This document shows positions 11,633 to 30,002 of a stretch of DNA of 34,569 nucleotides, piece by piece. The stretch's first letter is position 1; each line of letters opens with the position of its first letter. The notes under the pieces were generated by a model, which saw only the letters and a list, made by a program, of their open reading frames with translations, had not been told where the DNA came from and did no database searches. Origin of the DNA: Deltaproteobacteria bacterium. Lineage in GTDB: Bacteria > JAMCPX01. The stretch spans positions 1-34,569 of the forward strand of contig JAMCPX010000018.1 in the NCBI GenBank assembly GCA_023382265.1, written 5' to 3'. The position numbers and the translations under genes were made by a program.

Positions 11633-12706
11633 ATGATGGCACGATTATTTTTAATATTAATAATGGTAACAGCACTACCCGTATTAAGCCTCGCTAATAG
11701 AGGAAAAGACTGCACAACTTCAAAGTGTCATACAGGCATTTTATCAGGCTCTTTTAAACATCCCGCACTTGACAGCATGGGATGCATAGACTGTCATGCG
11801 CCAGCAAAAGGTAGTCATAAATTTACATTATCTGCCTCTGTTCCTGATCTATGCTATACATGTCATGATAAAAAGAATACAAAAAAAGATGTGCATCCAC
11901 CTGTTACGCAGGGCAAATGTGTGACATGTCATAATCCTCATTCTGAAAATAACAAATATTTATTGAGAACAAAAGGCATGATAAGAGGTCCGGTTTTCCT
12001 CCAGAAACAAGGCAACAAAGACATCTACATTGTTCAACCTATCAATAACATAGCAGGACTATGTTTATCATGTCATAAGGATATAATAAAAAAAACTTAT
12101 GTACATGATGCTGTAAAACTTGGCAGGTGTCTTACATGTCATCATGCCCATGAATCAGACCATGACCATCTTTTAAGAAAACCATCTCCTGTAAGCAACA
12201 CGTGTTTTATCTGTCATGAAGATGATCTAACAGGAAGAAAGGTCATACATCCTGCTGTTGCAGGTGGTGAATGCACAAACTGTCATAACCCACACGCCTC
12301 TGATAATCCTTATATGCTTGCTGCGAAAGGCAAAGAACTGTGCTATATGTGTCATGAACCAAAAGACAAAGATAAGGTTGTGCATCCTGCTTTAGAAAAA
12401 TATGGCTGTATAGCATGCCATGATCCACATGGTTCAAATAATGATTTTATGTTGAAGAAGCCTATAAATGAGCTGTGTGCAACATGTCATAAACAACAGA
12501 CCGATGGCTTTCATATCTTTACAACGCCTCAAAACAAGCCCCATCCTGTATCAGGTGTATATGATATGAAGGAACTGAAAGGCAAACCGCTTACCTGTGT
12601 AAGCTGTCATAATCCGCATTCATCTAATTACCCTTATATGTGGTATGCTGGCAAAACTAAACTTGATATGTGTAAAAGATGTCATGGCAAAGCATCAAAC
12701 TGGTAA
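11633..12706 (+). CDS. Multiheme c-type cytochrome, 12 CXXCH plus one CX4CH
   Basis: A 357-residue secreted protein with a signal peptide (about 1-21, ending SLA). It carries twelve CXXCH heme sites (for example CIDCH, CYTCH, CVTCH, CLSCH, CKRCH) in the doubled-CXXCH pattern where each pair is followed by NPH or DPH, and its first site is CTTSKCH, a CX4CH form. The CX4CH...CXXCH order is like that of Geobacter-type cytochrome repeats. Regularly spaced HP/PH histidines can supply sixth ligands. It is the first gene after the sigma-54 promoter and is 9 bp ahead of an NHL lipoprotein. A role in periplasmic or cell-surface electron transfer is inferred. Confidence 0.9.
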   Translation: MMARLFLILIMVTALPVLSLANRGKDCTTSKCHTGILSGSFKHPALDSMGCIDCHAPAKGSHKFTLSASVPDLCYTCHDKKNTKKDVHPPVTQGKCVTCHNPHSENNKYLLRTKGMIRGPVFLQKQGNKDIYIVQPINNIAGLCLSCHKDIIKKTYVHDAVKLGRCLTCHHAHESDHDHLLRKPSPVSNTCFICHEDDLTGRKVIHPAVAGGECTNCHNPHASDNPYMLAAKGKELCYMCHEPKDKDKVVHPALEKYGCIACHDPHGSNNDFMLKKPINELCATCHKQQTDGFHIFTTPQNKPHPVSGVYDMKELKGKPLTCVSCHNPHSSNYPYMWYAGKTKLDMCKRCHGKASNW

Positions 12707-12715
12707 AGGATTGTA

Positions 12716-13732
12716 ATGAAAAAAATTTTACTACTTTTATTTTTTATATTTACAGGTTGTGCTGGCGCAAAGATAAAGCCGGCAAAGATCGTATGGCCAC
12801 TGCCCCCCAATGAACCACATATAGAATATATTGAAGCACTTCATGGACGATACGATTTTCCTCAAAGTGCATGGCAGAGGTTTCTGAACTTTTTACTTGG
12901 TCCTAAACAAGAACCCTCACTCGTTCAGCCTATGGGGATTGCAATCAGTGATGATGCACAGCGTGTTTATGTAACAGATTATCAGCTTGGTGCTGTGTTT
13001 GTGTTTGATCTTAAAGAAAAAAAAGTAAGATATATCGGCATAGACCAAAGGTATCATCTTGTAAATCCGTTTGGTATAGTACTGGATAAAGATGAAAATG
13101 TCTATGTTACTGATTCTTCTTTAAAGCTTGTAAGGGTGTTTGATAAACATGGTAAGTTTATCAAAGATATAGGTGTTAATATGTTTCTTAGACCAACTGG
13201 TCTTGCAGTGAATTTAAAAAAGGATCTACTCTATGTAGCAGATACAGCATTCAATGAGGCAAATGGACATGATGTCAAAGTATTTACCTTCCTGGGGAAA
13301 TATGTAAAAACCATAGGTAAAAGAGGCACGGGTGATGGTGAGTTCAATTTTCCAACATACCTTGCTGTTAATGCTAATGGAGACCTGTATGTAAGCGATA
13401 CAATGAACTTTCGTATACAATGGTTCAGTACAAAAGGGAAGTTTCTTGGTAAATTTGGTGTTGAGGGTGATGCCCCGGGTACATTTGATAGGATAAAAGG
13501 CATTGCCTTTGACAATCGTGGGAATATCTACGTTGCTGATTCTGACTTCCATGCTATTCAGATGTTCACAAAGGACTGGAAACCATTAATGTATTTTGGC
13601 GGACCTGGCATAGGATCAGGACAACTTATTATACCAACAGCTATTGCCATTGATAAAAACAACCGTATCTATGTTGCTGATAGCTATAGCTACAGGGTTA
13701 ATGTGTATCAACTGATCAATAGGAATAACTAA
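12716..13732 (+). CDS. NHL-repeat beta-propeller lipoprotein
   Basis: A 338-residue lipoprotein. The signal peptide ends in the lipobox FTGC (C15), so it should be acylated and carried to the outer membrane. After an N-terminal segment with the motif KIVWPLPP, six NHL blades of about 40-50 residues run from ~70 to 335; each has a G[IL]A-x-D/N and a VYVTD/IYVADS strand. The propeller would act as a binding scaffold. A paralogue with the same N-terminal IVWP motif lies at 19676-20695. NHL proteins often accompany multiheme cytochromes in metal-reducing bacteria. The SD AAAGGA is well placed. Its 3' end is duplicated just downstream. Confidence 0.88.
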   Translation: MKKILLLLFFIFTGCAGAKIKPAKIVWPLPPNEPHIEYIEALHGRYDFPQSAWQRFLNFLLGPKQEPSLVQPMGIAISDDAQRVYVTDYQLGAVFVFDLKEKKVRYIGIDQRYHLVNPFGIVLDKDENVYVTDSSLKLVRVFDKHGKFIKDIGVNMFLRPTGLAVNLKKDLLYVADTAFNEANGHDVKVFTFLGKYVKTIGKRGTGDGEFNFPTYLAVNANGDLYVSDTMNFRIQWFSTKGKFLGKFGVEGDAPGTFDRIKGIAFDNRGNIYVADSDFHAIQMFTKDWKPLMYFGGPGIGSGQLIIPTAIAIDKNNRIYVADSYSYRVNVYQLINRNN

Positions 13733-13931: not shown

Positions 13932-13970
13932 CACTCAACAGACATGTGTGAGCCGTCTTCTTATTGCATT

Positions 13971-13984: not shown

Positions 13985-14031
13985 CTGGCATGAATCCTGT
14001 TACAAGTAATGATAAAAAGGAGGTGAAAACA

Positions 14032-14772
14032 ATGAAAAAACTCAGTTTTGCAGTGTTAATGTTAGCCATAGCTGGGCTAACTGTAACAGCAAATGCGGCT
14101 ATTACTACAACCAAGCATAATCTTTCAGCCAGCTCTACAAATTACACAAGATCACAGGCAACAACAGCAGGTGGTACAAGTCAGATATGCGTGTTCTGTC
14201 ATACTCCGCACCATGCACTTGATCAAAGGTTTATATGGAACCATGCTGCGTCAAGCAATACAACATGGACATGGGGTACAGGGAGTGCAACAGGGACATC
14301 AGCTGGAACAGTGCTGCCAACAAATCCGGCAAACCTGCCATCATTCAAATGCATTTCGTGTCATGATGGTTCGGTTGCAATAGGACAGGTAAATGAGGTA
14401 TTTAACGAATCAACAGGTGTTGTAAATTCAAGCTACTCTATACCTATGCAGGGCGATGTGAACGCGGCATACCAGTTGACAAATTCAACCTATGAAGTTG
14501 GTGTTGGTGGAAACATGAATGGTAATCACCCCATTGGTATCCCGTATCCTGGACAGTCACCATACAATGGCATCAGCTCAGGTGCTGGTATAATTATTTC
14601 TCAATTCCAGGCAAGTCCTACAAATGTGGAGCTCTTCCAGGATCCCAACGGTGGTACAGGTAAGGGAGTTGAATGTGGAAGCTGCCATGCTGTTCACGGC
14701 TCAATAAATCCTATGTTATTAAGGGATGCAATAACAAGCAGTCAGCTCTGTCTCGATTGTCACATAAAATAA
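14032..14772 (+). CDS. Tetraheme c-type cytochrome, OmcE-like nanowire subunit candidate
   Basis: A 246-residue secreted protein. The ATG at 14032 is chosen over an upstream start because of the strong SD AAGGAGGTG and the clean signal peptide cleaved near residue 22-23 (TANA/AIT). It has four CXXCH motifs: CVFCH at 53, CISCH, CGSCH and CLDCH at the very C-terminus. Four histidines shared with its paralogue (20676-21407) could be the distal heme ligands: HNLS, TPH, NHPI and VHG. The mature chain is rich in Ser, Thr, Asn and Gly. Tetraheme proteins of this size and layout form OmcE filaments in Geobacter; equivalence here is inference. It is followed by its own terminator, fitting high expression of a structural protein. 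Confidence 0.85.
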   Translation: MKKLSFAVLMLAIAGLTVTANAAITTTKHNLSASSTNYTRSQATTAGGTSQICVFCHTPHHALDQRFIWNHAASSNTTWTWGTGSATGTSAGTVLPTNPANLPSFKCISCHDGSVAIGQVNEVFNESTGVVNSSYSIPMQGDVNAAYQLTNSTYEVGVGGNMNGNHPIGIPYPGQSPYNGISSGAGIIISQFQASPTNVELFQDPNGGTGKGVECGSCHAVHGSINPMLLRDAITSSQLCLDCHIK

Positions 14773-14787
14773 AACTGCTTTTTCATA

Positions 14788-14809
14788 GGGGCGTAAGCCC
14801 CCTTTTTTT
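14788..14809 (+). terminator. Rho-independent terminator after the tetraheme gene
   Basis: GGGGC (14788-14792) and GCCCC (14797-14801) form a stem with a GTAA loop, followed by C and seven T. It lies 16 bp after the cytochrome stop. It would separate a highly transcribed tetraheme message from the downstream outer-membrane genes, or act as a partial terminator within the cluster. Confidence 0.8.
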
Positions 14810-14946
14810 ATGATTAAATATAATATAAGGGTATAAATGTGAGAATGAGAAAAGAGTAAAAAACGTAATGGCTCAGTTAATTGGGAATAGCATTGAAAAA
14901 GCAAACTACCCGTAACCGAGGAATTACAAAAAAACGATATACTGCA

Positions 14947-16638
14947 ATGAAAGTGATGCAAAGATATATACTAATAATCGTATATCTATTGTTTTTACCA
15001 ATAAGTGTATATGCACACAAGTATTATATAGGAGGGCAGGCAAGTTTAAGGTATGAGGACTACCTTGCTGATTATAATAATACCTCTAGCTATACAAGAG
15101 GGTTTGGTGGTGTATTAGGACTTAACTTCGCAACTTATATATACGATCCAAGACTAGCTGTATTTTCTTCTGGCCTTAATATTGATGATATAGATTACAC
15201 AACAACTGGAGGAGGATTAAGAAGATATACAACAGGTTATGTATTAAACCTTACCTTCCTGCCGGATAGCTCTCCATTGCTCTTCTATATAAGAGACATA
15301 TATAATGAGCAGGACACAGGTATAGGTTACCTTCTCAGAATGCGGACCTTTTCTTACGGTCTAAACTGGGCTATTGCTGTAAACTCTCTTCCAAGATTAA
15401 ATATTATTCTTGATAAAACACGCAATGAAATATCCGGCATTCCTTACATATTCAAGCAGGACAGAACAACTTCTGTTGTATCGTTCTCACAGGCGAACAG
15501 GGATAATATATTAACAGGTCAATATCAGTATATTAGCCAGAATGATCTTATCACTAACAGCAATTATACTACAAAGGGGCTTAGTATTAATGATAATAAA
15601 ACCTTTAACAAGACATTACACCTTTATACAGGATTAAACACCTATAATTTTACATTTGCATATCCGTCACAAACAACAATTTCAACAGATCAACTCAATG
15701 TTTATACAAACCTTGTAAGCACCCCTGACTGGAGAATAACAACCAACTATTTTGCCAACTATAGTACGAATGCCTACAGTAAAGGCAGTTCTCAGGGCAC
15801 ACAGGCAGGCTACAACCTTTATTATCGTGCAACAAATACCATAAGTTTTTTAAACGGTATTTATGTAATAGATTCAAGAAGCTCCGGTGATGCAGGCACC
15901 AGCTCAATGGACACAGAATTTATGCAAGGAGGCATTACCTATTTAAAGCCATGGGATCACTACTATATGAATGCAGGGTATAATATTGGGGTTGCAATGA
16001 TACAGAATCCACCTGTTGGTCAGGGGCTGGCGCATACTCATTATTTTGACGGTGGTATAGGCACAAAAGATTTTAAATTCTTTAATGTGTACAATGACCT
16101 GAATTATATGATCACAAAATACACACAGGGTTCAGGTAATAATCTTGATGACTTCCGCTATCTTGCACAACTATATAGTGCTTATTTTAAACCTGCTTAT
16201 CTTCAATCCAATTTTACATATGAAAGGGTATTTCAAAGCGGTTTCTATAACCAGTACCCTTTCTACAATCGTATGCTTAATCTTATATTTTCTCTGCCTG
16301 TATCATACGTTGGTTTATTCTCGCTCACAGGAGGGATTCTCAACAATTCCACCCCTCAGGCATGGTACAGGAATCAATATGTTTCGACAACACTTGGCAT
16401 AACATCCATTCAGAATACCGCTGCAAATATAGTTTTTCAGTATGGATTTAATAGTGCATCATATTACCCATCATCTGAATATACGAGGTATGAGGTTTAT
16501 GTAACACACTTCTACCGCATGCTGTTTATCAATATAAAAGGATACTTGATTAACCAGCACATACCAGGTGCCAACAGCAATGTTCATGGATTGATCATTC
16601 AACTTGGAAGAAACTTCGGGGGTTATATTGGTGAATAA
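14947..16638 (+). CDS. Large outer-membrane beta-barrel protein (porin-like)
   Basis: A 563-residue protein starting at the first ATG, where a signal peptide is seen (MKVMQRY, a hydrophobic stretch, cleavage near VYAHK). An earlier TTG at 14881 would add 22 basic residues before it. The mature part has dense alternating Tyr/Thr/Asn/Ser strands with short turns (for example YQYISQNDLI and TNYFANYST), no transmembrane helices and no heme motif, as in TonB-independent porins of 20 or more strands. The C-terminus is GGYIGE rather than the usual terminal Phe. Beside cytochromes such a barrel may be the sheath of an electron conduit (as in MtrB-type complexes) or a secretion pore. No family was recognised by sequence. 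Confidence 0.7.
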   Translation: MKVMQRYILIIVYLLFLPISVYAHKYYIGGQASLRYEDYLADYNNTSSYTRGFGGVLGLNFATYIYDPRLAVFSSGLNIDDIDYTTTGGGLRRYTTGYVLNLTFLPDSSPLLFYIRDIYNEQDTGIGYLLRMRTFSYGLNWAIAVNSLPRLNIILDKTRNEISGIPYIFKQDRTTSVVSFSQANRDNILTGQYQYISQNDLITNSNYTTKGLSINDNKTFNKTLHLYTGLNTYNFTFAYPSQTTISTDQLNVYTNLVSTPDWRITTNYFANYSTNAYSKGSSQGTQAGYNLYYRATNTISFLNGIYVIDSRSSGDAGTSSMDTEFMQGGITYLKPWDHYYMNAGYNIGVAMIQNPPVGQGLAHTHYFDGGIGTKDFKFFNVYNDLNYMITKYTQGSGNNLDDFRYLAQLYSAYFKPAYLQSNFTYERVFQSGFYNQYPFYNRMLNLIFSLPVSYVGLFSLTGGILNNSTPQAWYRNQYVSTTLGITSIQNTAANIVFQYGFNSASYYPSSEYTRYEVYVTHFYRMLFINIKGYLINQHIPGANSNVHGLIIQLGRNFGGYIGE

Positions 16639-18793
16639 GTATTTAAAACCTCTATTACTAATTATGTTTTTTTGGTGCTTAATAATACCCATTGTTAAGT
16701 GGGGATGGGAGTATGAGTGGATAAAGATCACATTTTCTGCTTTATCTGCTTTTATATTTTTTGGACTTGTCTCTATAATCCATCAGAATAAAATGCCTAC
16801 AAAAATACCTGGTGTAATGCTGTTTACAGGGATAATAGGTATATGGATTGTTATTTCTATAATATCCTCAAAAGTACCTATAAAAGGGTTTGTTGAAATT
16901 ATAAAAGTACTTGGTCCATTTTTTATGTATCCTGCTTTGATTATCCTTGCACCGGATGACAACGATATGGACCTACTTACAATTGCTATTGCTATCGGGG
17001 TCATAATAAGTGCATCAATAGGTTTTGTTCAGCTTACAGGTGTATATGGCTATATTCCCACTGATCAGTATGGCAGGATAAATCCAATATCTACCTTTGG
17101 GCTATCAAATTTTGGTGCTGAGTACATTGTCAGTGTCTTACCTTTGCTTATAAGTCAATTTATTTTCAGGAAAAAACTGTGGAACAGCATTGTCATTGGT
17201 ATTGGGATAATAGGAGGCATACTGTATGTTATAATTTCACATTCAAGAGCTTCATGGATTGCTCTCATTATTTTAAGTCTTGTAAGCATTGGTATGTTTA
17301 TTTCTGTAAGAAGGAAAAGGCAATTCAAAATAAATCTGTCCCCTTTATACATAACAGGTATAATGGTTGCAGGTACTTTTTTGCTCTCCTTGATATTCAG
17401 TCAGACAAGCAGTCTGATCAAACATTTCACATCTATATTCAATGTATATTATCCCGATAACATCGTAAGATTGCTTACATGGAAATCAATACTTGTATAT
17501 CTTGCACCATCACATCCTGTTTTAGGCATTGGGTTTGGTGCATTTGATGCTGTATTCCCGTTATATGCTGATAAGACATTATCCCTGATGACATTTTCAA
17601 ATCATGTTACTATGAACTATGCACATAACGAATACCTCAACATACTGTCAGAAACAGGCATCCCTGGATTCCTGATGTTTATTGGTTTACTCATGTATAT
17701 ACTATACGAATTTGTATACAGTATATCAAAGGCTAAAGGAAAAGATATACCTGTTCTTATTGGCGGGTTCCTCGGATTTATCAACCTGCTTATTATTGGC
17801 TTATTTTCATTCCCTCTTAGAATGCCTGCAACAGCCGTTTTATTCTGGATGTATGCTGGCATTGGTAGTTTATACTCTCATAGCACATTTAATGTGAAGC
17901 CTTATGTATGGAAGATCAGCAACTATGTACTAGTAGTTTTGAGCTTTTTAGTATTCATTGCTGCTTTTCATATAACCCTTGCCCAAAGGGCATACCTCTT
18001 TGCTAATACCCTATTCAAACAGAACCATACCCAAAGCTCTGCAATGATGGGTGAGATTGAAGATAAACTTTCTTATGCCATTACCCAGGCACCTTTTAAT
18101 GAAAACTATTTTTTTGACAGGGCAATGATTAGAATTAACCGTGGTAACAGAATCGGTGCTTTAAAGGATCTGAAAGATACTATAAATCTATCCCCATACT
18201 ATCTTCAGGCGCGGCGATGGCTTGGCATACTTTATTCAGATAAGGGTGATTATAGCAATGCAATGAAACAATTTAACATGGCATACAAGCTTGCTTATTT
18301 TTCTCCTACTGTTCAGGCGATTATCATGAACGATCAGACAGTGGTACTTATAAGAAAAGGCAATTACACCGCAGCACTTAATACTGTTAAAAAGACCCGG
18401 CTTCTTGATCCATACAATTATACATTGTTTGAATTACAAGGAGAAGCAAGTGAACATCTTGGCTTATATGATCAGTCACTGCAGGCATATAAACATGCGT
18501 TAGAGTTAAATCCTGAACAGAGAGATACGGCTGTTAATCTTGCATCACTCTATATACAGTTAAAGAAATATGATAAGGCTTTATCTCTATTGAAGGCTGT
18601 TAAACAACCTGATGCGTATGTGTACTACAACCTCGCATGTACTTATGCAAGGATGGGCAATCAACGTGAAGCATGGAGAAACATATCTATTGCAATAAAG
18701 ATGAATAAAGCATTATATCCCAGTGCCTTAAATGATCCTGATCTCCGCGCCCTGCATATATTTTTAAAGAAACTGCCAGAGAGATTATTATGA
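16631..18793 (+). CDS. O-antigen ligase/oligosaccharyltransferase-like membrane protein with TPR domain
   Basis: A 720-residue protein starting at GTG 16631, overlapping the barrel gene by eight bases, with GGGGG as SD. About ten to twelve transmembrane helices fill residues 1-450. The Wzy_C (O-antigen ligase/polymerase) signatures are present: HSRASWIALIIL, GIGFGAFDAVFPLY and HNEYLNILSETGIPG. The C-terminal 270 residues are TPRs (ALKDLKDTINLSPYYLQARR, ALELNPEQRDTAVNLASL). PglL-type enzymes of this family transfer glycans to protein Ser/Thr, sometimes with TPRs for substrate choice. In this cluster it may glycosylate a secreted cytochrome; alternatively it modifies polysaccharide. Confidence 0.85.
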   Translation: MNKYLKPLLLIMFFWCLIIPIVKWGWEYEWIKITFSALSAFIFFGLVSIIHQNKMPTKIPGVMLFTGIIGIWIVISIISSKVPIKGFVEIIKVLGPFFMYPALIILAPDDNDMDLLTIAIAIGVIISASIGFVQLTGVYGYIPTDQYGRINPISTFGLSNFGAEYIVSVLPLLISQFIFRKKLWNSIVIGIGIIGGILYVIISHSRASWIALIILSLVSIGMFISVRRKRQFKINLSPLYITGIMVAGTFLLSLIFSQTSSLIKHFTSIFNVYYPDNIVRLLTWKSILVYLAPSHPVLGIGFGAFDAVFPLYADKTLSLMTFSNHVTMNYAHNEYLNILSETGIPGFLMFIGLLMYILYEFVYSISKAKGKDIPVLIGGFLGFINLLIIGLFSFPLRMPATAVLFWMYAGIGSLYSHSTFNVKPYVWKISNYVLVVLSFLVFIAAFHITLAQRAYLFANTLFKQNHTQSSAMMGEIEDKLSYAITQAPFNENYFFDRAMIRINRGNRIGALKDLKDTINLSPYYLQARRWLGILYSDKGDYSNAMKQFNMAYKLAYFSPTVQAIIMNDQTVVLIRKGNYTAALNTVKKTRLLDPYNYTLFELQGEASEHLGLYDQSLQAYKHALELNPEQRDTAVNLASLYIQLKKYDKALSLLKAVKQPDAYVYYNLACTYARMGNQREAWRNISIAIKMNKALYPSALNDPDLRALHIFLKKLPERLL

Positions 18794-19683
18794 TATTGCG
18801 GAATATTGCCTTAAATTTATGCATATCAATTGTGCTTATCCTTTGTATTGCCGGGGCAGTATTTTCAGCGCCGTACAAGAATGGATTATCGGGTATGTTT
18901 GATGTACCTGATACGACTACATTAGGCAGCGGCGCATTTCTGTACAACGTATGGGCAGAGTACTATAAACAGGATAGGACAGATAACTTTAATGTTTCAC
19001 CCGTTACTGTCTCATTTGGTATACTGGATAATCTGGAAGTTATGATTGGTGCTGTGCATTACAACAAGTATCAACTGCTTTATGAAAAAAACAGCATAGG
19101 TATGATTGTTGGCGCTAAATGGCGATATTTTCAAAACCCAGACCTCGCTACTTCTGTAATTGGCGACAACATTTCAGGACATCCTTCAGTAGATATACGA
19201 GAGGTTATTGAGAAACGCTTTAACAAGCTTAATCTCACCTTCAGTACCGGCTATCTGTCCGTGCTAAGAGCACTCATTTTAAGTGGTGGCATAATTTACA
19301 GGGCAGGAGAGCAATGGGATATACTCTTTGATACAGACAACTGGATCGTTAACAGCACTGTTTTCAAAAACAGATTTGAAGGCACAGCAGGTGCAAGGTA
19401 CTATTTTGCTAATAGATCAACTGTTTTATCAGGCGGCATTGGTGGTGGTATGTCTTATACAGGAAAGGATGAGATGCATATTATCTTAGGACTTAGTGTA
19501 TGCTCTTCCTCACAATCACTCAACAATGCTAAAATTGTTGAAGCAACCAAACCAACCTCTGAATCAGCCACACAACTCAATACGGTTAAACAGAAGACAT
19601 TTGAATCACCAGTACCTGAGTTTAAGATGCGCATGCCTATCCAACCTGTTCCCGATGAAAATACGGGTAAAAAAAATGATTAA
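18790..19683 (+). CDS. Outer-membrane beta-barrel protein, YjbH-like
   Basis: A 297-residue protein with signal peptide (1-26, cleavage near VFSA/PYK). The mature N-terminus GLSGMFDVPDTTTLG resembles the start of YjbH/exopolysaccharide-export barrels (G-x-x-G-x-x-[DE]-x-P-[DT]). Alternating strands run to about residue 240, for example VSPVTVSFGILDNLEVMIGA and FEGTAGARYYF, then a Thr/Lys/Pro-rich tail of about 55 residues. It overlaps the upstream gene by four bases (ATGA). It may work with the glycosyltransferase-like protein before it, for example in surface glycan export. The family call is tentative. Confidence 0.55.
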   Translation: MILRNIALNLCISIVLILCIAGAVFSAPYKNGLSGMFDVPDTTTLGSGAFLYNVWAEYYKQDRTDNFNVSPVTVSFGILDNLEVMIGAVHYNKYQLLYEKNSIGMIVGAKWRYFQNPDLATSVIGDNISGHPSVDIREVIEKRFNKLNLTFSTGYLSVLRALILSGGIIYRAGEQWDILFDTDNWIVNSTVFKNRFEGTAGARYYFANRSTVLSGGIGGGMSYTGKDEMHIILGLSVCSSSQSLNNAKIVEATKPTSESATQLNTVKQKTFESPVPEFKMRMPIQPVPDENTGKKND

Positions 19684-20695
19684 AAAGCGTTTTATTATAT
19701 CGCTTTTTTTATTCGTAGTTTTAACAGGATGTGCACACACGCCGCAATTCAAAACTGTAAATATTGTTTGGCCTGAAAACAACCCGCGCATATCATTTGT
19801 CCGCTCTGTATACTCTGCAAATGATCTAGGTATCAGGCCCGGATGGATTTCACGGATATTCAGTTTTATCACAGGTGCAAATAGCCAGTACAGTATCCGG
19901 TTTTCTCCTTTTGCGATTGCTGCTTACAAAGGAATTATAGGTGTTACAGATATACAGGCATCAGATGTGAGGCTTTTTGATAAGGATAATAACAGCTTTA
20001 CTATTATCAGTAAATGTGGCGCTTCATATTTTACCACACCAACAGGCATAGCAATAACAGAAAATAGAGTATATGTTGCGGATTCCTCTCAGAAAAGTGT
20101 ATTTATAATAAGCAGGAGCGGCAGGTGTCTGGAAAGCATTACCAATAGTTTATTTATCAGACCCACTTCTGTTGCCATTGCAGGAAATGGAGATATATAC
20201 ATAGTAGATACAGGTATGAACATGGTTTTTGTATACGATAATAGAGATAAATTTAAATTTTCTTTCGGCTCGCATGGCGATAGAGCAGGTGAGTTTAATT
20301 TTCCAACAGCCATCACAATAAAAAATAACACAGTATTTATCATAGACAGCCTTAACTTCAGGATCCAGATATTTTCACTTAACGGTAAATTTATATCATC
20401 CTTTGGCAGACAGGGAGATGGAAGCGGTGATTTTGCCAGACCCAAAGGCATAGCAGTGGATTCGGATGGCATTATTTATATAAGTGATGCATTGTTTGAT
20501 GTGGTTCAGATGTTTAGCGCTAAAGGGGATTATCTTATGACATTTGGAAGGCATGGAACAGATGGTGGAGAGTTATCAATGCCATCAGGCATAGTTGTTG
20601 AACACGGCCGCATTTATGTTGCAGATGAGTTAAACAACAGGATTGATATATTTAAAAGGATAGTTGATACGGAGAATGGAGCACCACATCAATAA
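19676..20695 (+). CDS. NHL-repeat beta-propeller lipoprotein, second copy
   Basis: A 339-residue lipoprotein, started at ATG 19676 because a perfect signal peptide and lipobox (VLTGC, C18) follow; the long upstream extension of this frame overlaps the previous gene and is not real. Six NHL blades follow (for example TPTGIAITENRVYVADSS and PKGIAVDSDGIIYISDA). It is a paralogue of the protein at 12716-13732, sharing the post-lipobox motif IVWP and blade order. Each NHL lipoprotein is followed by a tetraheme cytochrome in the cluster, suggesting that the two form a functional pair. The start overlaps the preceding gene by eight bases. Confidence 0.88.
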   Translation: MIKKRFIISLFLFVVLTGCAHTPQFKTVNIVWPENNPRISFVRSVYSANDLGIRPGWISRIFSFITGANSQYSIRFSPFAIAAYKGIIGVTDIQASDVRLFDKDNNSFTIISKCGASYFTTPTGIAITENRVYVADSSQKSVFIISRSGRCLESITNSLFIRPTSVAIAGNGDIYIVDTGMNMVFVYDNRDKFKFSFGSHGDRAGEFNFPTAITIKNNTVFIIDSLNFRIQIFSLNGKFISSFGRQGDGSGDFARPKGIAVDSDGIIYISDALFDVVQMFSAKGDYLMTFGRHGTDGGELSMPSGIVVEHGRIYVADELNNRIDIFKRIVDTENGAPHQ

Positions 20696-21407
20696 ACAAA
20701 GAGATACCTATGTTTCACTGTTTGTAAAGGGAGCGGCTGTAATTCTTTTACCTGCAATGTTATTACTGCTGAGCTGCAGTCTTGCGTATGCTGGAAGTGT
20801 TCTGAATACGCTGCATAATCTGTCTATATCAGGTCCCGGCCAGATAAAGTCCACAACAGAGAAACAGGTGTGTATATTCTGTCATACCCCACATGATGCT
20901 GAACCACATACGCCTCTTTGGAACAAAAAACTTAATACAGGTACAAATTACAACATATACTGGTCCAATAGCCTTGAATCAATGTCACCTGGTGGGAAAC
21001 CTGTAACACCCGATGGGGCTTCAAAGCTGTGTCTGAGCTGCCATGATGGTACTATAGCCATTGGTCAGGTCAGGAGCAGGAGATCACCAATCCCCATGCA
21101 GAACAACATAACGACAATGCCATCAACATCAAAGGGGTATCTTGGAACAAACCTTTCTGGCAGTCATCCCATATCCTTTGTTGTAACACAAAAGATAATT
21201 ACACAGAGCTATGTTACAGGTTCAAATCTTGCTAGCATGACAGAGATGAAAGATGATCCTGATGGAGTAAGGCTTGACCGCAATAATGAGGTTCAGTGTA
21301 TATCATGCCACAATCCGCACCAGGATGATAATTTTTCTGCCTCTGGCGTGCATTTTCTAAGAAAATCAAATATTACGCAGGTTTGTATAACCTGTCATAA
21401 AATGTAA
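20676..21407 (+). CDS. Tetraheme c-type cytochrome, paralogue of the 14032 gene
   Basis: A 243-residue secreted protein; ATG 20676 is inside the end of the NHL gene (20-bp overlap), with a TTG at 20664 as alternative. The signal peptide has a long n-region (to ~18) and ends near LAYA/GSV. It has CIFCH, CLSCH, CISCH and CITCH, the last at the C-terminus. Shared with the first tetraheme protein are [KL]HNLS, C[VI]FCHTPH, C[IL]SCHDG[ST][VI]AIGQV, PMQ, HPI and C[IG]SCHxxH, so heme order and probable distal histidines are conserved. Two variants may build two filaments, or one may be an adaptor at the base of the other. Confidence 0.85.
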   Translation: MEHHINKQRDTYVSLFVKGAAVILLPAMLLLLSCSLAYAGSVLNTLHNLSISGPGQIKSTTEKQVCIFCHTPHDAEPHTPLWNKKLNTGTNYNIYWSNSLESMSPGGKPVTPDGASKLCLSCHDGTIAIGQVRSRRSPIPMQNNITTMPSTSKGYLGTNLSGSHPISFVVTQKIITQSYVTGSNLASMTEMKDDPDGVRLDRNNEVQCISCHNPHQDDNFSASGVHFLRKSNITQVCITCHKM

Positions 21408-21418
21408 TAGATGTAACC

Positions 21419-22585
21419 ATGAAGAGAATATTTTTACTGATTATTGTTGGCTTGGTATCATATATTATATTACAGTATCAGGTGCATGCAGACGCTATAA
21501 ATACGATAAACCCACATCTCTCTCTGCCCAAAGGATGTGCAAGCTGTCACGCTGGTCATGGCGTTGCTGGAACGCCCATGCTTGTAAAAAACGGCTCAAG
21601 TCTGTGTTTTCAATGTCATGGCAGTGCACAGGAACAGAATAAGGCAAAGCTTTCAGGTATGCTCCTGCTGTTATCACCAATACCTGATGTTGCAGATGAC
21701 TTTCAAAAGCCATCACATCACCCTATTGATACAGTTGCATACATGACAGTTATGGAGCAAAAACACGGGCAGATAAATACTACAACGCGTCATGCTGAGT
21801 GTATTGACTGCCATAGTCCGCATCATCTAGAGTTAGGGGGTATCTCTCAAATAGGTCAGAGAAAGATGCTATGGCTTAACCACAGTATGCACTATGAGTA
21901 TGAACTTTGTTTTAAATGTCATGCAAACCAGTCCCTACCACCTTATGAAACAGACAAGGCAATAGAATTTAATCCGTCAAATGCATCATATCACCCTGTT
22001 GAGTCACCAGGGAAAAACTATCTTGTTCCAAGTCTGATCCCTCCATGGACAATATCAAGCTATGTAAACTGCACCGATTGCCATAGTGCTGATAATGCAA
22101 TAGGTGGCTCTTCGCCGCATGGCTCTATATATGCGCCGATACTCAACAAGAATTACTATAAACAGGACGGCAGGCCTGAAAGTGATTATGCGTATGCTTT
22201 ATGCTATCAGTGCCATAACAGGACAAGTATACTGAGTAACCAGAGCTTCTTGTATCACAGAGAACATATAGTGAATGCGAACACCTCTTGTTTTACATGT
22301 CATGATTCACATGGTTCTATTAATTATCCCTATCTTATAAGGTTTAACAAAGATCCAAGGTTTACTGTTGTGCTGCCAAACTCCGAGGGTAGACTTAATG
22401 TTGTATTTAAAACGCAAAACAATGTCGAATGTTTTTTAAGTTGCCACGGTGTGGATCATAATCCAACTCCAAATATGTTTACCTCAACAACAAGGTCTTC
22501 AATACCTTCTTTAAGTCCATTGAATTATAATCCCGGTATGCCGTCACCATACTTTAATCCATTTCCTGTGCCCTATCATAAATGA
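21419..22585 (+). CDS. Multiheme c-type cytochrome, 7 CXXCH plus one CX3CH
   Basis: A 388-residue secreted protein with signal peptide (about 1-24, ending VHA/DAI). Seven CXXCH sites: CASCH, CFQCH, CIDCH, CFKCH, CTDCH, CYQCH and CFTCH. An eighth site reads CFLSCH, a CX3CH spacing. Doubled pairs are followed by HGV, HGS or PHH histidines. The last 50 residues are Pro/Ser/Asn rich without heme. It starts 11 bp after the tetraheme gene in the same direction, and a 408-bp gap follows. It is likely a periplasmic or surface electron carrier acting with the tetraheme protein. Confidence 0.88.
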   Translation: MKRIFLLIIVGLVSYIILQYQVHADAINTINPHLSLPKGCASCHAGHGVAGTPMLVKNGSSLCFQCHGSAQEQNKAKLSGMLLLLSPIPDVADDFQKPSHHPIDTVAYMTVMEQKHGQINTTTRHAECIDCHSPHHLELGGISQIGQRKMLWLNHSMHYEYELCFKCHANQSLPPYETDKAIEFNPSNASYHPVESPGKNYLVPSLIPPWTISSYVNCTDCHSADNAIGGSSPHGSIYAPILNKNYYKQDGRPESDYAYALCYQCHNRTSILSNQSFLYHREHIVNANTSCFTCHDSHGSINYPYLIRFNKDPRFTVVLPNSEGRLNVVFKTQNNVECFLSCHGVDHNPTPNMFTSTTRSSIPSLSPLNYNPGMPSPYFNPFPVPYHK

Positions 22586-22993: not shown

Positions 22994-24397
22994 ATGTTTA
23001 AAAATATAGGTATTTGTATAATTGCCCTCTTGTTGACATACGCTACAATAGGGGCAAGTAATGCCAATGCATCCGTACCTGTGATCAATGGTATTAATGC
23101 GATTCCATCTGCATTATTCCCCGGTAGAACAAGTATAATAGATGTGAATGCAAGCTCAACTGATAATGGGATGCTTGTGTATACATATTCGTGTAATGCT
23201 GGTAGCTTTATTACCTGGATTGGTAGTCAGGCAAGATGGCTATCCCCAGTTGTTGGTGGGCATTATACTATCACAATTACTGTAAGCTCTACAAAAGGGG
23301 GCGAGGCATTTACCTATGTTTCATTGGAGGTTCAACCTGCCTTCTATTATAAAAGCCTTAATAATCTTGAGGAGCCTGTTTATCTGACAACTGATCGCAA
23401 TGGCAACCTTTATATATCCGAGCCTTATGCCAGAAGGCTTACAGCATTTAACAGCAGGGACAAAATCCTTTTCAGCGGTTCAACAACCATCAAAAATGGT
23501 CCACTTACTGTTATGAATAATATGATTTACGTTGCTTCAAAGACAGACGGCAGTATAAATGCCTATTCCACAGTTGATGGTGGTTTTGTATCAACAATAT
23601 GTAAGAAAAATACTTTTAATAATCCCTCAGGTATTGCAGGTAATGATTCTGCAAGAATCCTTTATGTTTCTGATGGCTCTAATATTCATATTATAGATAC
23701 TGTCTGTAATAGATTGGGTGATATTGCCTATATCAGCAACGGTATGCCTGTTGGTATGAACTTTGATAATGTTGATGGTGTACTATCCATAGCTGATCCG
23801 CTCAGTGCAAACGTAACCATAATAAATACCCTAAACAATAGCTCTGTTCAGGTCGGTCAGTATGGAGTAAATGGCTCCATAGGATGGTCTGGATTTAACC
23901 CCGGCTTTGATAATGGAACAAGCCTTATAAGACCTTTAAGCGTTGCAAAGGATGCCTTTAACAGATACTACGTTGCTGATGGTTATCAGAATTCGGTATT
24001 TGTTTATACAGATCAGAACATGTTTGTAGGCTCAATAGGGTATTATGGTACTGACCCTGGCGCATTCAAAAATCCAACAAGCCTTGCTATTGATAGAACC
24101 AACGGGTTTCTATATGTTGCTGATCCTTTTAATAACCGCGTTGAGGTATTCAACATTGATAAAAAACCATTGCCCCCAACCAGTTCAACAACCATCGTAA
24201 ACCCGCCAACAACCATTGTAAACCCGCCAACAACAGTCACAAGCAATGCTGTGGCAATTTCAAAAAGTACAGGCTGTGCATGTAATTTGTCTGGCAGTGG
24301 ATCAGGTAGCGTATCAATAATGGATGGGATGGATGGATATACTGAGCTGGTTATGCTTGGATTGTTTATGTTGTTGATCAGGAGAAAGCATGCGTAA
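22994..24397 (+). CDS. Secreted Ig-like + NHL-propeller protein with MYXO-CTERM-like tail
   Basis: A 467-residue protein: signal peptide (1-27), an Ig/PKD-like beta domain (~30-112, ending YTITITVSSTKGG), NHL blades to ~390 (for example PVYLTTDRNGNLYISEP and PTSLAIDRTNGFLYVADP), then a Thr/Pro linker with an exact-like repeat TTIVNPP. The last 40 residues read GCAC, a Gly/Ser stretch, a hydrophobic helix (ELVMLGLFMLLI) and RRKHA. A Cys pair, transmembrane helix and basic end is the layout of MYXO-CTERM surface-sorting signals; the fit is by pattern. It has no lipobox, unlike the other two NHL proteins, so it may reach the surface by a different route. Confidence 0.8.
   Translation: MFKNIGICIIALLLTYATIGASNANASVPVINGINAIPSALFPGRTSIIDVNASSTDNGMLVYTYSCNAGSFITWIGSQARWLSPVVGGHYTITITVSSTKGGEAFTYVSLEVQPAFYYKSLNNLEEPVYLTTDRNGNLYISEPYARRLTAFNSRDKILFSGSTTIKNGPLTVMNNMIYVASKTDGSINAYSTVDGGFVSTICKKNTFNNPSGIAGNDSARILYVSDGSNIHIIDTVCNRLGDIAYISNGMPVGMNFDNVDGVLSIADPLSANVTIINTLNNSSVQVGQYGVNGSIGWSGFNPGFDNGTSLIRPLSVAKDAFNRYYVADGYQNSVFVYTDQNMFVGSIGYYGTDPGAFKNPTSLAIDRTNGFLYVADPFNNRVEVFNIDKKPLPPTSSTTIVNPPTTIVNPPTTVTSNAVAISKSTGCACNLSGSGSGSVSIMDGMDGYTELVMLGLFMLLIRRKHA
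24188..24229 (+). repeat. Two 21-bp tandem repeats in the Thr/Pro linker
   Basis: Two copies of a 21-bp unit (24188-24208 and 24209-24229, differing by one C/T) encode two TTIVNPP-type units in the linker of the NHL/CTERM protein. A partial third copy (ACAAC) follows. This is the usual slippage-prone linker repeat. Confidence 0.85.
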
Positions 24398-25844
24398 CCG
24401 CATAAAAAAGGTACTGCTTGTTACGCCACCTTATCACTCAGGTGTCGTGGAATCTGCAGGCGTATGGCTACCGCTTGGTTTTGTCTATATTGCTGGTGCT
24501 CTGAGAGAAAAGGGTTATGAAACCGAGATCTATGATGCAATGAGCCTGTTTCATACCCATGAGGACATAATCAGAAAAATAAAGACAGACAAACCCGATG
24601 TGGTTGCAACAACTGCAATAACAGCATCCTTGCCAGATGCAGTTGAGATTTTAAATCATGCAAAAATGATAGATGAACATATTATAACGGTGATTGGTAA
24701 TGTACACCCAACATTTATGTTCAACGAACTGCTCAATAACCACGGTTCTATTGATTATATTATTAGAGGAGAGGGGGAAGTTACCTTTGCGGAACTCCTT
24801 GATGCCATCAATGCATACGGAAATATAGGGCATGTAAGGGGTATTGCATTCAAAACAGATGACTGTATACATATAACACCTGACCGTCAGCTTCTAATGG
24901 ATCTTGATGCCTTATCACCTGCGTGGGACCTGGTTAACTGGAGGGACTATCGCTATTTTCCTGAGGATAATGCTACACTCGGCATAGTGAGCTCTTCCAG
25001 AGGATGCATTCATCAGTGCAGTTTCTGCTCACAGCAGCTTTTTTGGGAAAAAAAATGGAGACAGAGATCAGCACTATCATTCGTAAATGAACTTGAGATG
25101 CTCTCAGAGCAATATGGTGTAAGCGTTGTCATGCTTTCTGATGAATATCCTACAGCAAACAGACAGCGTTGGCTTGATATACTCAATCTTATTATCCTCA
25201 GAGGCTTGAAGATCAAGCTCCTTCTTGAAACAAGGGTTGATGACATTGTCAGAGATCAGGATATAATAGACCTTTATGTGAAGGCAGGGGTGTCGCATAT
25301 ATATGTTGGCGTAGAATCAGGTAGTAGTACATCCCTTGAGCTGTTCAAGAAAGATATAAAAACAGAACAAAGCAAAAGGGCAATTGATATAATCAACAAA
25401 GCGGGCATTGTATCAGAAACAAGCCTTGTACTTGGCATGCCCTACGAAACCTCTGACACAATAAAACAGGCACTTGATACCGCTGTTTATTATAACCCTG
25501 ACATGGCTTTTTTTCTCGCAATAGCACCATGGCCCTACAGCGATATATATCCTCAGCTTAGGCATCACATAGCTGTACATGACTACAGAAAGTATAATCT
25601 CGTAGAGCCGGTTGTTAAGCCTGATGCAATGGAGCTCAGTGAGCTTGAAGATGATCTTATACAGGCAACAAAGGAATTTTATATGTATAAGATGAGGCAG
25701 TTGAAATCTATGCCCGCAAATAAGAGAAAATTTATGGTCAAACTGATGACGATACTTATGAAGAATTCATACATAGGCACAAAGCTGAGGGGAATGATCA
25801 AAGAGGATAAACAGATAATGTATATGATGCACAGAGGGGATTAA
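24390..25844 (+). CDS. B12-binding domain radical SAM protein
   Basis: A 484-residue enzyme. Residues 1-170 form a Rossmann-type cobalamin-binding domain with VLLVTPPY, PLGFVYIAGALREKG, GNVHPTF and the IIRGEGE turn; the DxHxxG cobalt ligand motif is not present, as in many members. The radical SAM domain follows with CIHQCSFC (C206, C210, C213) binding the 4Fe-4S cluster, then VVMLSDE and YVGVESGS. Such enzymes methylate or rearrange unactivated carbons. It overlaps the NHL/CTERM gene by eight bases with a good SD (AGGAG), and the 14-heme cytochrome starts five bases after it. Its substrate here is unknown; a cytochrome or its heme is possible. Confidence 0.9.
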   Translation: MRNRIKKVLLVTPPYHSGVVESAGVWLPLGFVYIAGALREKGYETEIYDAMSLFHTHEDIIRKIKTDKPDVVATTAITASLPDAVEILNHAKMIDEHIITVIGNVHPTFMFNELLNNHGSIDYIIRGEGEVTFAELLDAINAYGNIGHVRGIAFKTDDCIHITPDRQLLMDLDALSPAWDLVNWRDYRYFPEDNATLGIVSSSRGCIHQCSFCSQQLFWEKKWRQRSALSFVNELEMLSEQYGVSVVMLSDEYPTANRQRWLDILNLIILRGLKIKLLLETRVDDIVRDQDIIDLYVKAGVSHIYVGVESGSSTSLELFKKDIKTEQSKRAIDIINKAGIVSETSLVLGMPYETSDTIKQALDTAVYYNPDMAFFLAIAPWPYSDIYPQLRHHIAVHDYRKYNLVEPVVKPDAMELSELEDDLIQATKEFYMYKMRQLKSMPANKRKFMVKLMTILMKNSYIGTKLRGMIKEDKQIMYMMHRGD

Positions 25845-25848
25845 ACTT

Positions 25849-28632
25849 ATGAGTAGATTGACGCAACTTATCATTATCCTTTTTATAGTGATACTACCGC
25901 TTGCTGCTTATGCAACAGATCCACCTCATAATATGTCTTATGGTATATCCTGCTTGTCAAATCCTCAGAACAATATTACAGGCTGCCATGTTGCTCATAA
26001 TGCAGGAACAGCAGGCTTTCTTTTGACAAATACCGCGGCTACCATAGACAACCTATGTCAGAGCTGTCACAATGGAACCATAGCTGAGTTTGTTAAGGGA
26101 CATTCCTCAACTACAACGACAACCAAATATGGGACATGGAGTAAGGCATGCACGGATTGTCATAGTCCCCACCAGCAGTATCAATGGCGCTCTTATGGTT
26201 CACAGGCTTATATCTTCACCGGTACTGTTTCATCTTTATCATCAACCCAGCTTACAGATACAAGCGTCAATTGGGCTATAAATCAATGGCTGGGCAGTAT
26301 CCTTGTTCCTAATACAACCACTATAACAAACAGCATATATCCTGACACAAACAACCCTGCTATCTTTATGATAACAGGCAACAATGCGAATACACTTACG
26401 GTAAAGATTGTTTCAGGTAGTGCAGGGCTTAATGCATCGACAAGTGTTGGTGCAAACTACAGCATCTTTTACGGCAGACTTATGAGGTCACGGATGTATA
26501 CAGCAGGATGGAATAATATATACTTTTATAATAACGCAGGGATGCATTCATTTGCAGATGGCACAACATTTACAACATCAGGTGGTATAAACTACTACAC
26601 ATCAAATATATGCGAGACATGCCATACACAAACGAACCATCACAGATATACATCAGGCGCCACATTTACCCTTGCGTGTTCTGGTCAGTCGCATCACAAT
26701 GGACAGAACTGTATGGCATGTCATCCACACAGCAATGGGTTTGAGTTTACAGAAAGCCACGGTTCTCAGGATTGCATCCAGTGTCATTCATCTGTATTTA
26801 ATCCCATGAACACAACAACGGATTTTCATCACTACATGAACAACACACAGCCAGTCTATCCAGTGCTTTCTATACCGGCCACACTAGAAGGAACAACAGA
26901 TATAAACCGCAGATGTCTTATGTGTCATGCTGATCACGATGTGTTTAGCCCTGATGTGAATACATCAACAGGCGGCAGGGCTTATAACTTAAGGGCAGCT
27001 ATCTCGTTATCTCCAACACCAACATCAACTAATACATTTACAAACACAGATTTCATAAACAGTACATCAACACCGGGTATCTGCCTATCCTGTCATATGA
27101 CACTTCAGACAAAGAGCTACCTGCAATCTGACAATACAACAACCACGCCTTACATTCCTCTGTCAGATACACTCACAAATCAGGTTTCTGCATACAATGC
27201 TTCAGCACACAACTATCGAGTATCCTCGCTTTTCACGTCTTCAACAGAAACAGGATGCAATTATAACAATACATTTAATGCGAACTGTACAAAGTGTCAT
27301 AATGACACGATGTATCCAAAAAGCTCTCAGGGTGCGCAAATAACAACATATCCACAGGTATTTGGCATTCATGATTCAAGCATTTCATCCATAGTTGCTC
27401 CGCTTGTGTTGTGGCTATTTCCATATCTTCAATCAGGTCTGCCATTCTCACCACTTAATGAAAAATTTTGTTATCAGTGCCACGGTGCGAGCAATCCGAA
27501 TGCACCAAATAAGGATTACTACAATGTAGCTACGATGAGTGGGGTATCAACATCCATAGACAGTGCATTCAACAAGCCATACCAGCATCCAATAACCACA
27601 ACAAGCTATCTGCATAAGCCTTATGGAGAAGGGCTGTTATTCAACGATGGAACGCTTAGTGGTGCAAACAGGCATGTGGCATGCACGGATTGCCATAACC
27701 CACATACAGCAACGCCATCCATCCCTCTGTATGGTGCAAGCGGCGTAACAGTCACAAATCCACAGCAGGATTTTATTGATCTCGTATCCTCCAATTACAC
27801 GTACGCACCCAATGCATCTGTTACGCTGGCTCAATCTGGCGGGACGACAAACACAAACCTTGATTACAAACTGTGTTTCAAGTGTCATTCTAATTGGGCC
27901 TACGGGCTTGCAACAAACGCGCCTAATCCAACTCCATCTGCATCATGGCAGCAGACAAATATGGCACAAGAGTTTAATGTGAATAACTGGTCTTATCATT
28001 ATGTAGAAGGTGATCAGACAGCATCCGTATTACCTGCATCAGGTACGGGATGTAATTCATACGGACCAAATATAGGCAATGTTACACCAAGGGCAAGCAC
28101 AGCTTATGGCAATTTTAACACAACATACATTGGTGTGATGGATTCAACACTCGCAGGGCTTACTAATACCCAGATCCGAACAGCAAAGCTTAGATGCAGT
28201 AGCTGTCATGGGACAGACAATGCATCAAGTTCAGTGCCGGAAGGACCACACGGCTCTATAAACCCATTTATACTCAAAATACCTGCTGGCAGTCCTTATA
28301 ACGCATGGGATAGTACAGTGAAATACGCTACGGACTCTGGAAGAATATGGTGTTTTAACTGTCATGACCCTAATTTTACAAATAGTGGATTTAGTAGTTT
28401 TGGTCAGAATCTACACACAAATCCCCATAATAACAGAGCCTGCCAGGCATGTCATGTTGCCATTCCGCATGGATGGAAGAGATACAGGTTGCTCAGATTT
28501 GATGATTGTGATCCTGCGCCTTACATGAGTATACCCAATTATGGATTTCATTCAGGGGTTACCTGGGCAACCAGTGGCAACTGGAGAGAAGGGAATTGTC
28601 ATAATACGGGCGCGGTTGACAGTTGTGGTTAA
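25849..28632 (+). CDS. Large multiheme c-type cytochrome, 14 CXXCH plus CX10CH
   Basis: A 927-residue secreted protein with signal peptide (1-22, ending AYA/TDP). Fourteen CXXCH motifs are spread along the chain (CQSCH, CTDCH, CETCH, CMACH, CIQCH and nine more, the last CQACH near 880). The first heme-like site is C-x10-CH (start C35, GCHVAHN), a non-canonical spacing. The C-terminal end has NWREGNCHN with no partner Cys nearby. Long Ser/Thr/Asn-rich stretches separate heme groups, for example between motifs 2 and 3 (about 150 residues). It is followed directly by the heme-attachment genes resB and resC. It may be an outer-membrane or extracellular cytochrome. Confidence 0.88.
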   Translation: MSRLTQLIIILFIVILPLAAYATDPPHNMSYGISCLSNPQNNITGCHVAHNAGTAGFLLTNTAATIDNLCQSCHNGTIAEFVKGHSSTTTTTKYGTWSKACTDCHSPHQQYQWRSYGSQAYIFTGTVSSLSSTQLTDTSVNWAINQWLGSILVPNTTTITNSIYPDTNNPAIFMITGNNANTLTVKIVSGSAGLNASTSVGANYSIFYGRLMRSRMYTAGWNNIYFYNNAGMHSFADGTTFTTSGGINYYTSNICETCHTQTNHHRYTSGATFTLACSGQSHHNGQNCMACHPHSNGFEFTESHGSQDCIQCHSSVFNPMNTTTDFHHYMNNTQPVYPVLSIPATLEGTTDINRRCLMCHADHDVFSPDVNTSTGGRAYNLRAAISLSPTPTSTNTFTNTDFINSTSTPGICLSCHMTLQTKSYLQSDNTTTTPYIPLSDTLTNQVSAYNASAHNYRVSSLFTSSTETGCNYNNTFNANCTKCHNDTMYPKSSQGAQITTYPQVFGIHDSSISSIVAPLVLWLFPYLQSGLPFSPLNEKFCYQCHGASNPNAPNKDYYNVATMSGVSTSIDSAFNKPYQHPITTTSYLHKPYGEGLLFNDGTLSGANRHVACTDCHNPHTATPSIPLYGASGVTVTNPQQDFIDLVSSNYTYAPNASVTLAQSGGTTNTNLDYKLCFKCHSNWAYGLATNAPNPTPSASWQQTNMAQEFNVNNWSYHYVEGDQTASVLPASGTGCNSYGPNIGNVTPRASTAYGNFNTTYIGVMDSTLAGLTNTQIRTAKLRCSSCHGTDNASSSVPEGPHGSINPFILKIPAGSPYNAWDSTVKYATDSGRIWCFNCHDPNFTNSGFSSFGQNLHTNPHNNRACQACHVAIPHGWKRYRLLRFDDCDPAPYMSIPNYGFHSGVTWATSGNWREGNCHNTGAVDSCG

Positions 28633-30002
28633 ATCCGGTGTTTAAATGGATAGATAATAAAATAAAAACTCTGTTAACTGTTCTAAGATCACGAAGCCTT
28701 GCTACAGTCTTTATCCTCTTAATAGCTATTTCTCTTATCCTATCCACATTAATCCCCCAGTGGAACTGGGAAGAGAGTAGCGAGTATTTTTACCTCCATA
28801 CAACATACCCATGGGTTATGAAGGAACTCACAAGACTTATAGCTCTTATTGGACTCGAGCATGTTTACACAACATTGTGGTTTCTCAGTATTGTGCTGAT
28901 TTTTTCTTTAAATATAGCTTTAAACTCTTATGAGCGGATAAATATTATAATAAAGCAGTTTAAAGATCATAAACCAATGTCACCAGATGAGATAGCAAGG
29001 CTTAAAATTCATAAGATTATCCCTACGAATAAAAACACAAAGGAGCTAAAAGAAAAGATTAAACATACATTGAAACATAAGGGCTACAGGATAAAAGCTT
29101 ATGACAATGGATTGATAGCGTCAAAACATACTGTGGGTCTTTTAGGCGTTCCTCTCCTGCATCTGTCTATGCTCGTTATCTTGATAGGTGTACTTATAAC
29201 AAATCTTACAGGTTTTAAAGGACATATTGAGCTATCAGAGGGACAAGTTTTTCCCACAGGAGAGCCAAAATTCTTAGGTCCTTCGTATGGCTCTCTCCAT
29301 TTAAATCCTCAATTTGATTTTCAGATTAGATTAAAAAGCTTCAACGTAACATACTGGAACAAAGCGCATCCAAGGCTTTATAAGAGCATCGTAGAGGTTT
29401 ATAAAAACGGAACGCTTCTGTTTTCTAAGGATGTTGAGATGAATAAGCCACTCAAACTGGAAGGATTTAACTTTTATCAAACAAAGTATTATGGCTACTC
29501 TGCCTATTTTGGGCTTGTGGACACGGCTACAGGTTATGAAACAGCAGGGTATGTAAACTTTCCCTATAAAGAGAACGCTATAGGTGCACTCACACAGCAA
29601 TTTACTATCCCCGTACTTGGCTATCTGAGTATATTGAGCGTGAATGTATCCAATCCTGATAGGTTATCCATTGAGATCCTGGAAGGCGGTAAAAACCTTC
29701 ATTACAACAATATTAAAAAGGGGGATGTGATTTCGCTTGGAGACTTTGAATTGGTTTTTCATAATATGGTAAAGTGGACAGGCTTTTACGTCTCCAGGGA
29801 TTACGGTGTATCTGTTGTATTTACGGGATTCTTCTTACTCGTGCTTTCCATCCTTGGTTTTGTATTTATTATGCCCAAAAGGCTCTGGCTTGCTTATGAA
29901 AATGAAAAGCTCTTTATTGGTGCAAAGGTTTATAGTAGACTTACCACAGAGCATACCTATAAACAGGACATGGAAAATATTAAAAGAGAGTGTGAATTAT
30001 GA
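28623..30002 (+). CDS. resB: ResB/Ccs1 cytochrome c biogenesis protein
   Basis: ResB, with ResC, forms the System II machinery that moves heme to the outside and attaches it to CXXCH cysteines. The 459-residue protein has N-terminal membrane helices (about 24-45 and 80-100), a third near LLGVPLLHLSMLVILIGV (~175-193), a large periplasmic domain (GFKGHIELSEGQVFPTG) and a final helix near 400-420. The TTG start at 28623 overlaps the 14-heme cytochrome stop by ten bases; a GTG at 28638 is an alternative. It overlaps resC by four bases. Confidence 0.9.
   Translation: MWLNPVFKWIDNKIKTLLTVLRSRSLATVFILLIAISLILSTLIPQWNWEESSEYFYLHTTYPWVMKELTRLIALIGLEHVYTTLWFLSIVLIFSLNIALNSYERINIIIKQFKDHKPMSPDEIARLKIHKIIPTNKNTKELKEKIKHTLKHKGYRIKAYDNGLIASKHTVGLLGVPLLHLSMLVILIGVLITNLTGFKGHIELSEGQVFPTGEPKFLGPSYGSLHLNPQFDFQIRLKSFNVTYWNKAHPRLYKSIVEVYKNGTLLFSKDVEMNKPLKLEGFNFYQTKYYGYSAYFGLVDTATGYETAGYVNFPYKENAIGALTQQFTIPVLGYLSILSVNVSNPDRLSIEILEGGKNLHYNNIKKGDVISLGDFELVFHNMVKWTGFYVSRDYGVSVVFTGFFLLVLSILGFVFIMPKRLWLAYENEKLFIGAKVYSRLTTEHTYKQDMENIKRECEL

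Follow-up and report, generated by a model that had tools for sequence, protein, structure and literature searches.

Two OmcE-like tetraheme cytochromes in a deltaproteobacterial gene cluster: a candidate filament subunit and a candidate adapter module

The closest described system to the one studied here is the OmcE filament of Geobacter sulfurreducens (7TFS), in which heme 2 has inter-subunit ligation according to PMC12203936; that homologues of OmcE are widespread has been reported before (PMC12307469). In the assembly cluster of the OmcS nanowire, GSU2500-GSU2493 (Shen et al., 2025, as cited in PMC12977616), a nanowire gene has as neighbors genes with a proposed part in its maturation or secretion, and PMC5539420 describes a core cluster in which a six-bladed beta-propeller is combined with cytochromes of 16 and 26 hemes and a peptidyl-prolyl isomerase (PPIase). 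Porin-cytochrome conduits (MtrAB, OmbB-OmaB-OmcB, OetABI, and the novel porin-cytochrome clusters, PCCs) combine a barrel with multiheme cytochromes; among the novel ones are those of Verrucomicrobia with an 8-heme periplasmic cytochrome (PMC5615132). We analyzed a stretch of 34,569 nucleotides (hereafter the window), the contig JAMCPX010000018.1 of a Deltaproteobacteria bacterium (draft assembly GCA_023382265.1), which encodes two OmcE-like tetraheme proteins, OmcE1 (14032..14772) and OmcE2 (20676..21407); these genes, like all genes and codons of the cluster located below, are on the + strand. By its description, the OmcS cluster resembles the window in setting a nanowire gene beside putative maturation or secretion genes but differs from it in the filament protein, and the porin-cytochrome conduits follow the same gene-level logic. 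Whereas OmcE was reported to make up a filament by itself, the window has an A-type and a B-type homologue (names defined in this analysis, the A type being whatever falls outside the B clade described below) beside a 7-CXXCH partner, a barrel, and NHL genes. With a probability that we put at about one half, OmcE1 would be the filament builder, OmcE2 together with the cytochrome encoded at 21419..22585 (MHC388) a terminal cap or adapter, and the locus an OmcE-type nanowire with its cell-envelope parts.

From their sequences, we firmly regard OmcE1 and OmcE2 as true relatives of OmcE. OmcE1 (246 aa, with a signal peptide) starts at the ATG at 14032, a longer open reading frame (ORF) with a TTG start running from 13903, and OmcE2 (243 aa) starts at the ATG at 20676, overlapping the end of the gene before it. 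All motifs quoted for the two proteins in the original prediction, made from the window sequence, were found in the translations, and both carry four CXXCH in identical order: HNLS, CVFCHTPH, CISCHDGSVAIGQV, HPI, CGSCHAVH, and CLDCH plus two residues in OmcE1; HNLS, CIFCHTPH, CLSCHDGTIAIGQV, HPI, CISCHNPH, and CITCH plus two residues in OmcE2. The prediction was also correct in counting exactly four aligned non-CXXCH histidines, as each mature protein has six such histidines of which only four align, and in the alignment these four candidate distal ligands are those of 7TFS. They are kept in 62, 62, 65, and 65 of the 65 A-type modules and in all 81 B-type modules. The first of them is the HNLS histidine, namely His29 of OmcE1 (codon 14116..14118; invariant in A2), a candidate inter-subunit distal ligand, and His47 of OmcE2 (codon 20814..20816; 81/81 B modules), a candidate ligand for a neighboring filament subunit. 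We infer that this N-terminal histidine is the inter-subunit ligand, a role with which its place fits by analogy with OmcE.

A sequence search against all PDB chains returned full-length matches to OmcE (7TFS; E 5.6e-22 for OmcE1 and 5.2e-28 for OmcE2) and, as second-best match of both proteins, 9YUQ (E 2.1e-16 for OmcE1), a "Putative multiheme cytochrome c" of 16 identical chains that has the same four extra histidines; these were the only two significant matches for either protein. When every CXXCH was masked with positions held (500 shuffles), the Z scores against 7TFS were 9.5 for OmcE1 and 12.3 for OmcE2, and those of the two window proteins against 9YUQ were 8.0 and 6.1. The proposed homology to OmcE thus reaches well beyond the CXXCH motifs and stood after masking; generic CXXCH similarity was ruled out as an explanation by the masked test and by the lack of further significant PDB matches. 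OmcE1 and OmcE2 share 29% identity (E 1e-21), and their likeness cannot be put down to the heme motifs, the masked Z being 9.4 (500 shuffles). Membership in the OmcS family was rejected, 6EF8 being matched at only E 1.7 by OmcE2 and not at all by OmcE1, with OmcS and NrfB scores at E about 2 at best. We also discarded the idea that 9YUQ is a larger machine including the NHL or barrel proteins, as none of the other window proteins tested against it gave a match.

Scanning public genomes, we confirmed 565 relatives; the 80 loci kept, which are biased towards the OmcE2 family because the query had OmcE2 first, span Planctomycetes, Verrucomicrobia, Nitrospirae, Acidobacteria, Bacteroidetes, Proteobacteria, and others. 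In most of these loci the B family forms the N-terminal part of an 11-CXXCH cytochrome, with the OmcE module as the first four hemes and a remainder that matches the window gene 21419-22585; the two parts are separate genes in a few lineages, that of the window included. Among the fused forms is a protein of Geomonas paludis (locus L041, 10028-11674), a cultured bearer of the cassette. Fused modules, split modules, and OmcE2 formed one clade in a first tree (SH-like approximate likelihood ratio test, SH-aLRT, 94). In a careful tree of 57 rows, based on about 215 columns and with long A branches, we recovered the B clade with an ultrafast bootstrap (UFBoot) of 96 and an SH-aLRT of 84, one fused row falling outside; OmcE2 grouped with the other split B modules (98/99), and 7TFS, 9YUQ, and OmcE1 were all outside the clade. 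Judged from these sequences, the B family of OmcE2 is an old sister family of OmcE that as a rule is fused to a larger cytochrome. The tree ruled out that the two window genes are equivalent paralogues from a recent duplication specific to the window, and the original view of OmcE1 and OmcE2 as equivalent filament paralogues was not upheld, OmcE2 lying in a separate clade whose members are mostly parts of fused proteins. The two types also occur together. Among 386 sampled genomes, in which A and B were called by ORF length and profile scores, OmcE-like genes were present in 22; B was found in 18, of which 17 had another OmcE-like match as well (partial in 2), A only was found in 4, and B only in 1. 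Several genomes carry at least two A-type genes beside a single B.

The junction between the B module and its partner is marked by a conserved histidine. Each of the 69 fused proteins examined has a histidine in the linker from heme 4 to heme 5; in 64 it lies exactly 10 residues beyond the fourth CXXCH, and it is invariant in the 51 aligned sequences. Its context is similar to OmcE's own N-terminal HNLS site: the motif [ST]xHx[LFTVIM][ST], which precedes heme 1 in 131 of 149 OmcE modules, was present in 32 of the 69 linkers, against a mean of 1.7 and a maximum of 7 after shuffling. Likewise, heme 5 reads CXXCHxxHxA in 62/69 fused proteins, as does heme 1. Where the parts are split, a histidine stands shortly before the first heme in nine of ten separate 7-CXXCH proteins, the tenth being incomplete. 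In the window, MHC388 (21419..22585), the equivalent of the C-terminal portion in the 11-CXXCH proteins that are fused elsewhere, begins about 12 bp downstream of OmcE2 and has seven CXXCH and one CX3CH; because of the latter site, a full chain of the OmcE2-MHC388 type may hold 12 hemes. Its His33 (NPHLS, codon 21515..21517), directly before the first heme, is the counterpart of the invariant linker histidine, and OmcE2, followed by an MHC388-like part with a histidine in this place, has the arrangement by which the B type is defined. In locus L106 (genome G244) the B-type gene is followed by an MHC388-like gene that appears to be in two pieces, possibly through a frameshift or an assembly error.

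These results bear on whether OmcE2, like OmcE1, is itself a filament subunit, the two forming alternative nanowires or one mixed polymer. In both proteins the four distal histidines are all kept and the chain stops two residues past heme 4, and by score OmcE2 is even nearer to 7TFS than OmcE1. We nevertheless consider a double filament unlikely: the OmcE2 clade is mostly N-terminal in a larger fused cytochrome, a fusion that would block free head-to-tail polymerization unless the C-terminal part were accommodated, and the gene for OmcE2's own partner part is only about 12 bp away. We preferred a cap or adapter role for OmcE2 over a second polymer because of this predominantly N-terminal place of its clade.

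In the mechanism that we propose, OmcE1 would polymerize head to tail, by analogy with OmcE, with the distal histidine of one heme per subunit (heme 2 in OmcE) supplied by the next subunit. OmcE2 would be a dedicated end piece: the N-terminal histidine of MHC388 would ligate heme 2 of OmcE2, the linker histidine of the same polypeptide serving this purpose in most relatives, and His47 of OmcE2 would ligate the terminal OmcE1. The outcome would be a continuous heme wire (MHC388, OmcE2, OmcE1, OmcE1, and so on) joined at an outer-membrane porin/cytochrome conduit. More generally, and tentatively, with the odds somewhat against it, OmcE nanowires of many phyla could be joined to the cell by a dedicated adapter similar to OmcE, with a partner part that mimics the filament subunit's N-terminal histidine, so that ligand exchange would continue the wire into the outer-membrane conduit; in the window this adapter would be split into two genes. 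An OmcE-type module that serves as an adapter in fusion with a larger cytochrome did not turn up in the literature passages covered by our non-exhaustive search, and an earlier mention is possible. The putative end piece is conserved, recognizable from its sequence, and comes with a specific predicted ligand exchange, which makes it directly testable; moreover, counts of OmcE homologues that are taken as nanowires may mislabel B-type modules.

The genes around the B type recur in the order OmcE-like tetraheme, NHL, often a 5-heme gene, a barrel-sized gene, NHL, and 11-CXXCH protein. In 76 of 83 loci the gene directly upstream of B encodes an NHL protein, and in 54 loci it is preceded by a heme-free gene of at least 400 residues. 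Of these barrel-sized genes, 47 belong to one sequence family and 42 have an aromatic last residue, as outer-membrane barrels do; three of the barrels were tested against known families and gave no match above threshold. A PPIase, as in the core cluster of PMC5539420, is also present in one relative of the cassette (L028). NHL is directly downstream of 43 of the 62 A-type genes and only upstream of 7, the pattern of the window being among the latter. In the window, NHL2 (19676..20695), a propeller-type NHL protein with a lipoprotein-like signal, lies directly upstream of OmcE2, and NHL1 (12716..13732), an NHL propeller with a similar signal, is paired with OmcE1; these lipoproteins would serve in assembly or surface attachment. 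The outer-membrane passage would be formed by MHC357 (11633..12706), a 12-CXXCH cytochrome that is a trans-outer-membrane or periplasmic candidate and scored 129.5 bits against the DmsE/MtrA-type decaheme family (below the cutoff of 192.2), and by a predicted outer-membrane beta-barrel-like protein (14947..16638), a candidate porin by its position. The latter had no significant match in Pfam, NCBIfam, or PDB and is not recognizable as a known PCC porin.

Such a neighborhood could also suit proteins that do not polymerize at all, OmcE1 and OmcE2 then being tetraheme shuttles of the periplasm or the cell surface, or parts of a compact porin-cytochrome complex. The barrel candidate, the MtrA-like cytochrome, and the large cytochromes nearby do resemble porin-cytochrome conduits, and filaments have never been seen for most OmcE homologues. 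This seems improbable to us: OmcE1 and OmcE2 are strongly homologous to the protein of the OmcE filament and share with it the histidine that would suit ligation between subunits, and several genomes have two or more A-type genes beside one B. Within our proposal of a filament with an end piece, the linkage to envelope genes favors a position of this piece at the base rather than at the tip, although sequence alone fits either end. That the B module and MHC388 cap the outer tip as a terminal reductase or oxidase would agree with the polarity of the sequences, which is compatible with either end, and with MHC388-type proteins being secreted and heme-rich, but we regard it as very unlikely, as NHL and barrel genes are consistently linked to B, which is indirect evidence for the envelope side.

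Several observations weigh against the combination of an OmcE1 filament with an OmcE2-MHC388 adapter. One fused row fell outside the B clade, although the full B group was not rejected by the approximately unbiased (AU) test (p 0.23), and the tree leaves the position of OmcE1 among the A types loose because of its long branch. The full HxLS-like motif is found in less than half of the linkers, and CXXCHxxH is common among multiheme cytochromes, heme 7 of the fused proteins also having it. The barrel of the window has no detectable sequence similarity to the main barrel family. Finally, one genome, 84% complete, has a B gene and no A gene, and the co-occurrence of A and B may reflect mere shared operons.

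Other genes complete the cluster. A Wzy_C (O-antigen ligase/O-glycosyltransferase-like) membrane protein with a TPR tail (16604..18793) is lineage-specific; among the loci seen, a Wzy_C and TPR protein is within the cluster only in the window, contig C40, and genome G005. Since OmcE filaments are reported as glycosylated, this protein might, by analogy, be a candidate glycosyltransferase for OmcE-type filaments. It is followed by a predicted beta-rich secreted or outer-membrane protein (18790..19683) with no matches in the family search. Downstream of MHC388 we identified NHL3 (22994..24397), a secreted NHL propeller whose C-terminus carries a sorting-like tail; a B12-binding radical SAM protein (24390..25844), BchE-like below the cutoff (403.8 vs 481.35 bits), whose gene is kept beside cytochromes in C40 and G005; and MHC927 (25849..28632), a 14-CXXCH cytochrome. 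Cytochrome maturation is part of the cluster as well, since ResB (28623..30002), a cytochrome c maturation protein, and a CcsB/ResC-type one (29999..30817) are encoded. Further along the window, positions 33106-34047 encode a secreted protein with internal propeller-type repeats, the internal repetition being visible also in the DNA.

The region 13695-30824 recurs in the same genome as a copy of about 17 kb on contig C40 (locus L015, 2080-19347), with DNA 93.6-96.8% identical; the flank past the ccsB-like gene differs between the two copies, and MHC357 is single-copy in the genome. The second copy could reflect a true duplication, or the assembly may include a variant from another strain. Positions 13629-13759, at the 3' end of NHL1, and 13800-13930, before OmcE1, form a direct repeat of 131 bases (94.7% identical), and the C40 contig also ends at this repeat site. 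A short repeated element with TTAGATTTTTACATGAC-like units is present at the start of the window (62-136) and on the border of the second copy (1995-2071 of L015); it has the look of a mobile-element terminus. The relatives of the window genome in the sample go from the same family straight to the same domain, and it may thus come from a poorly sampled phylum. The cluster was present in only one of eight sampled family members, which belongs to another genus and whose OmcE2 has about 92% protein identity.

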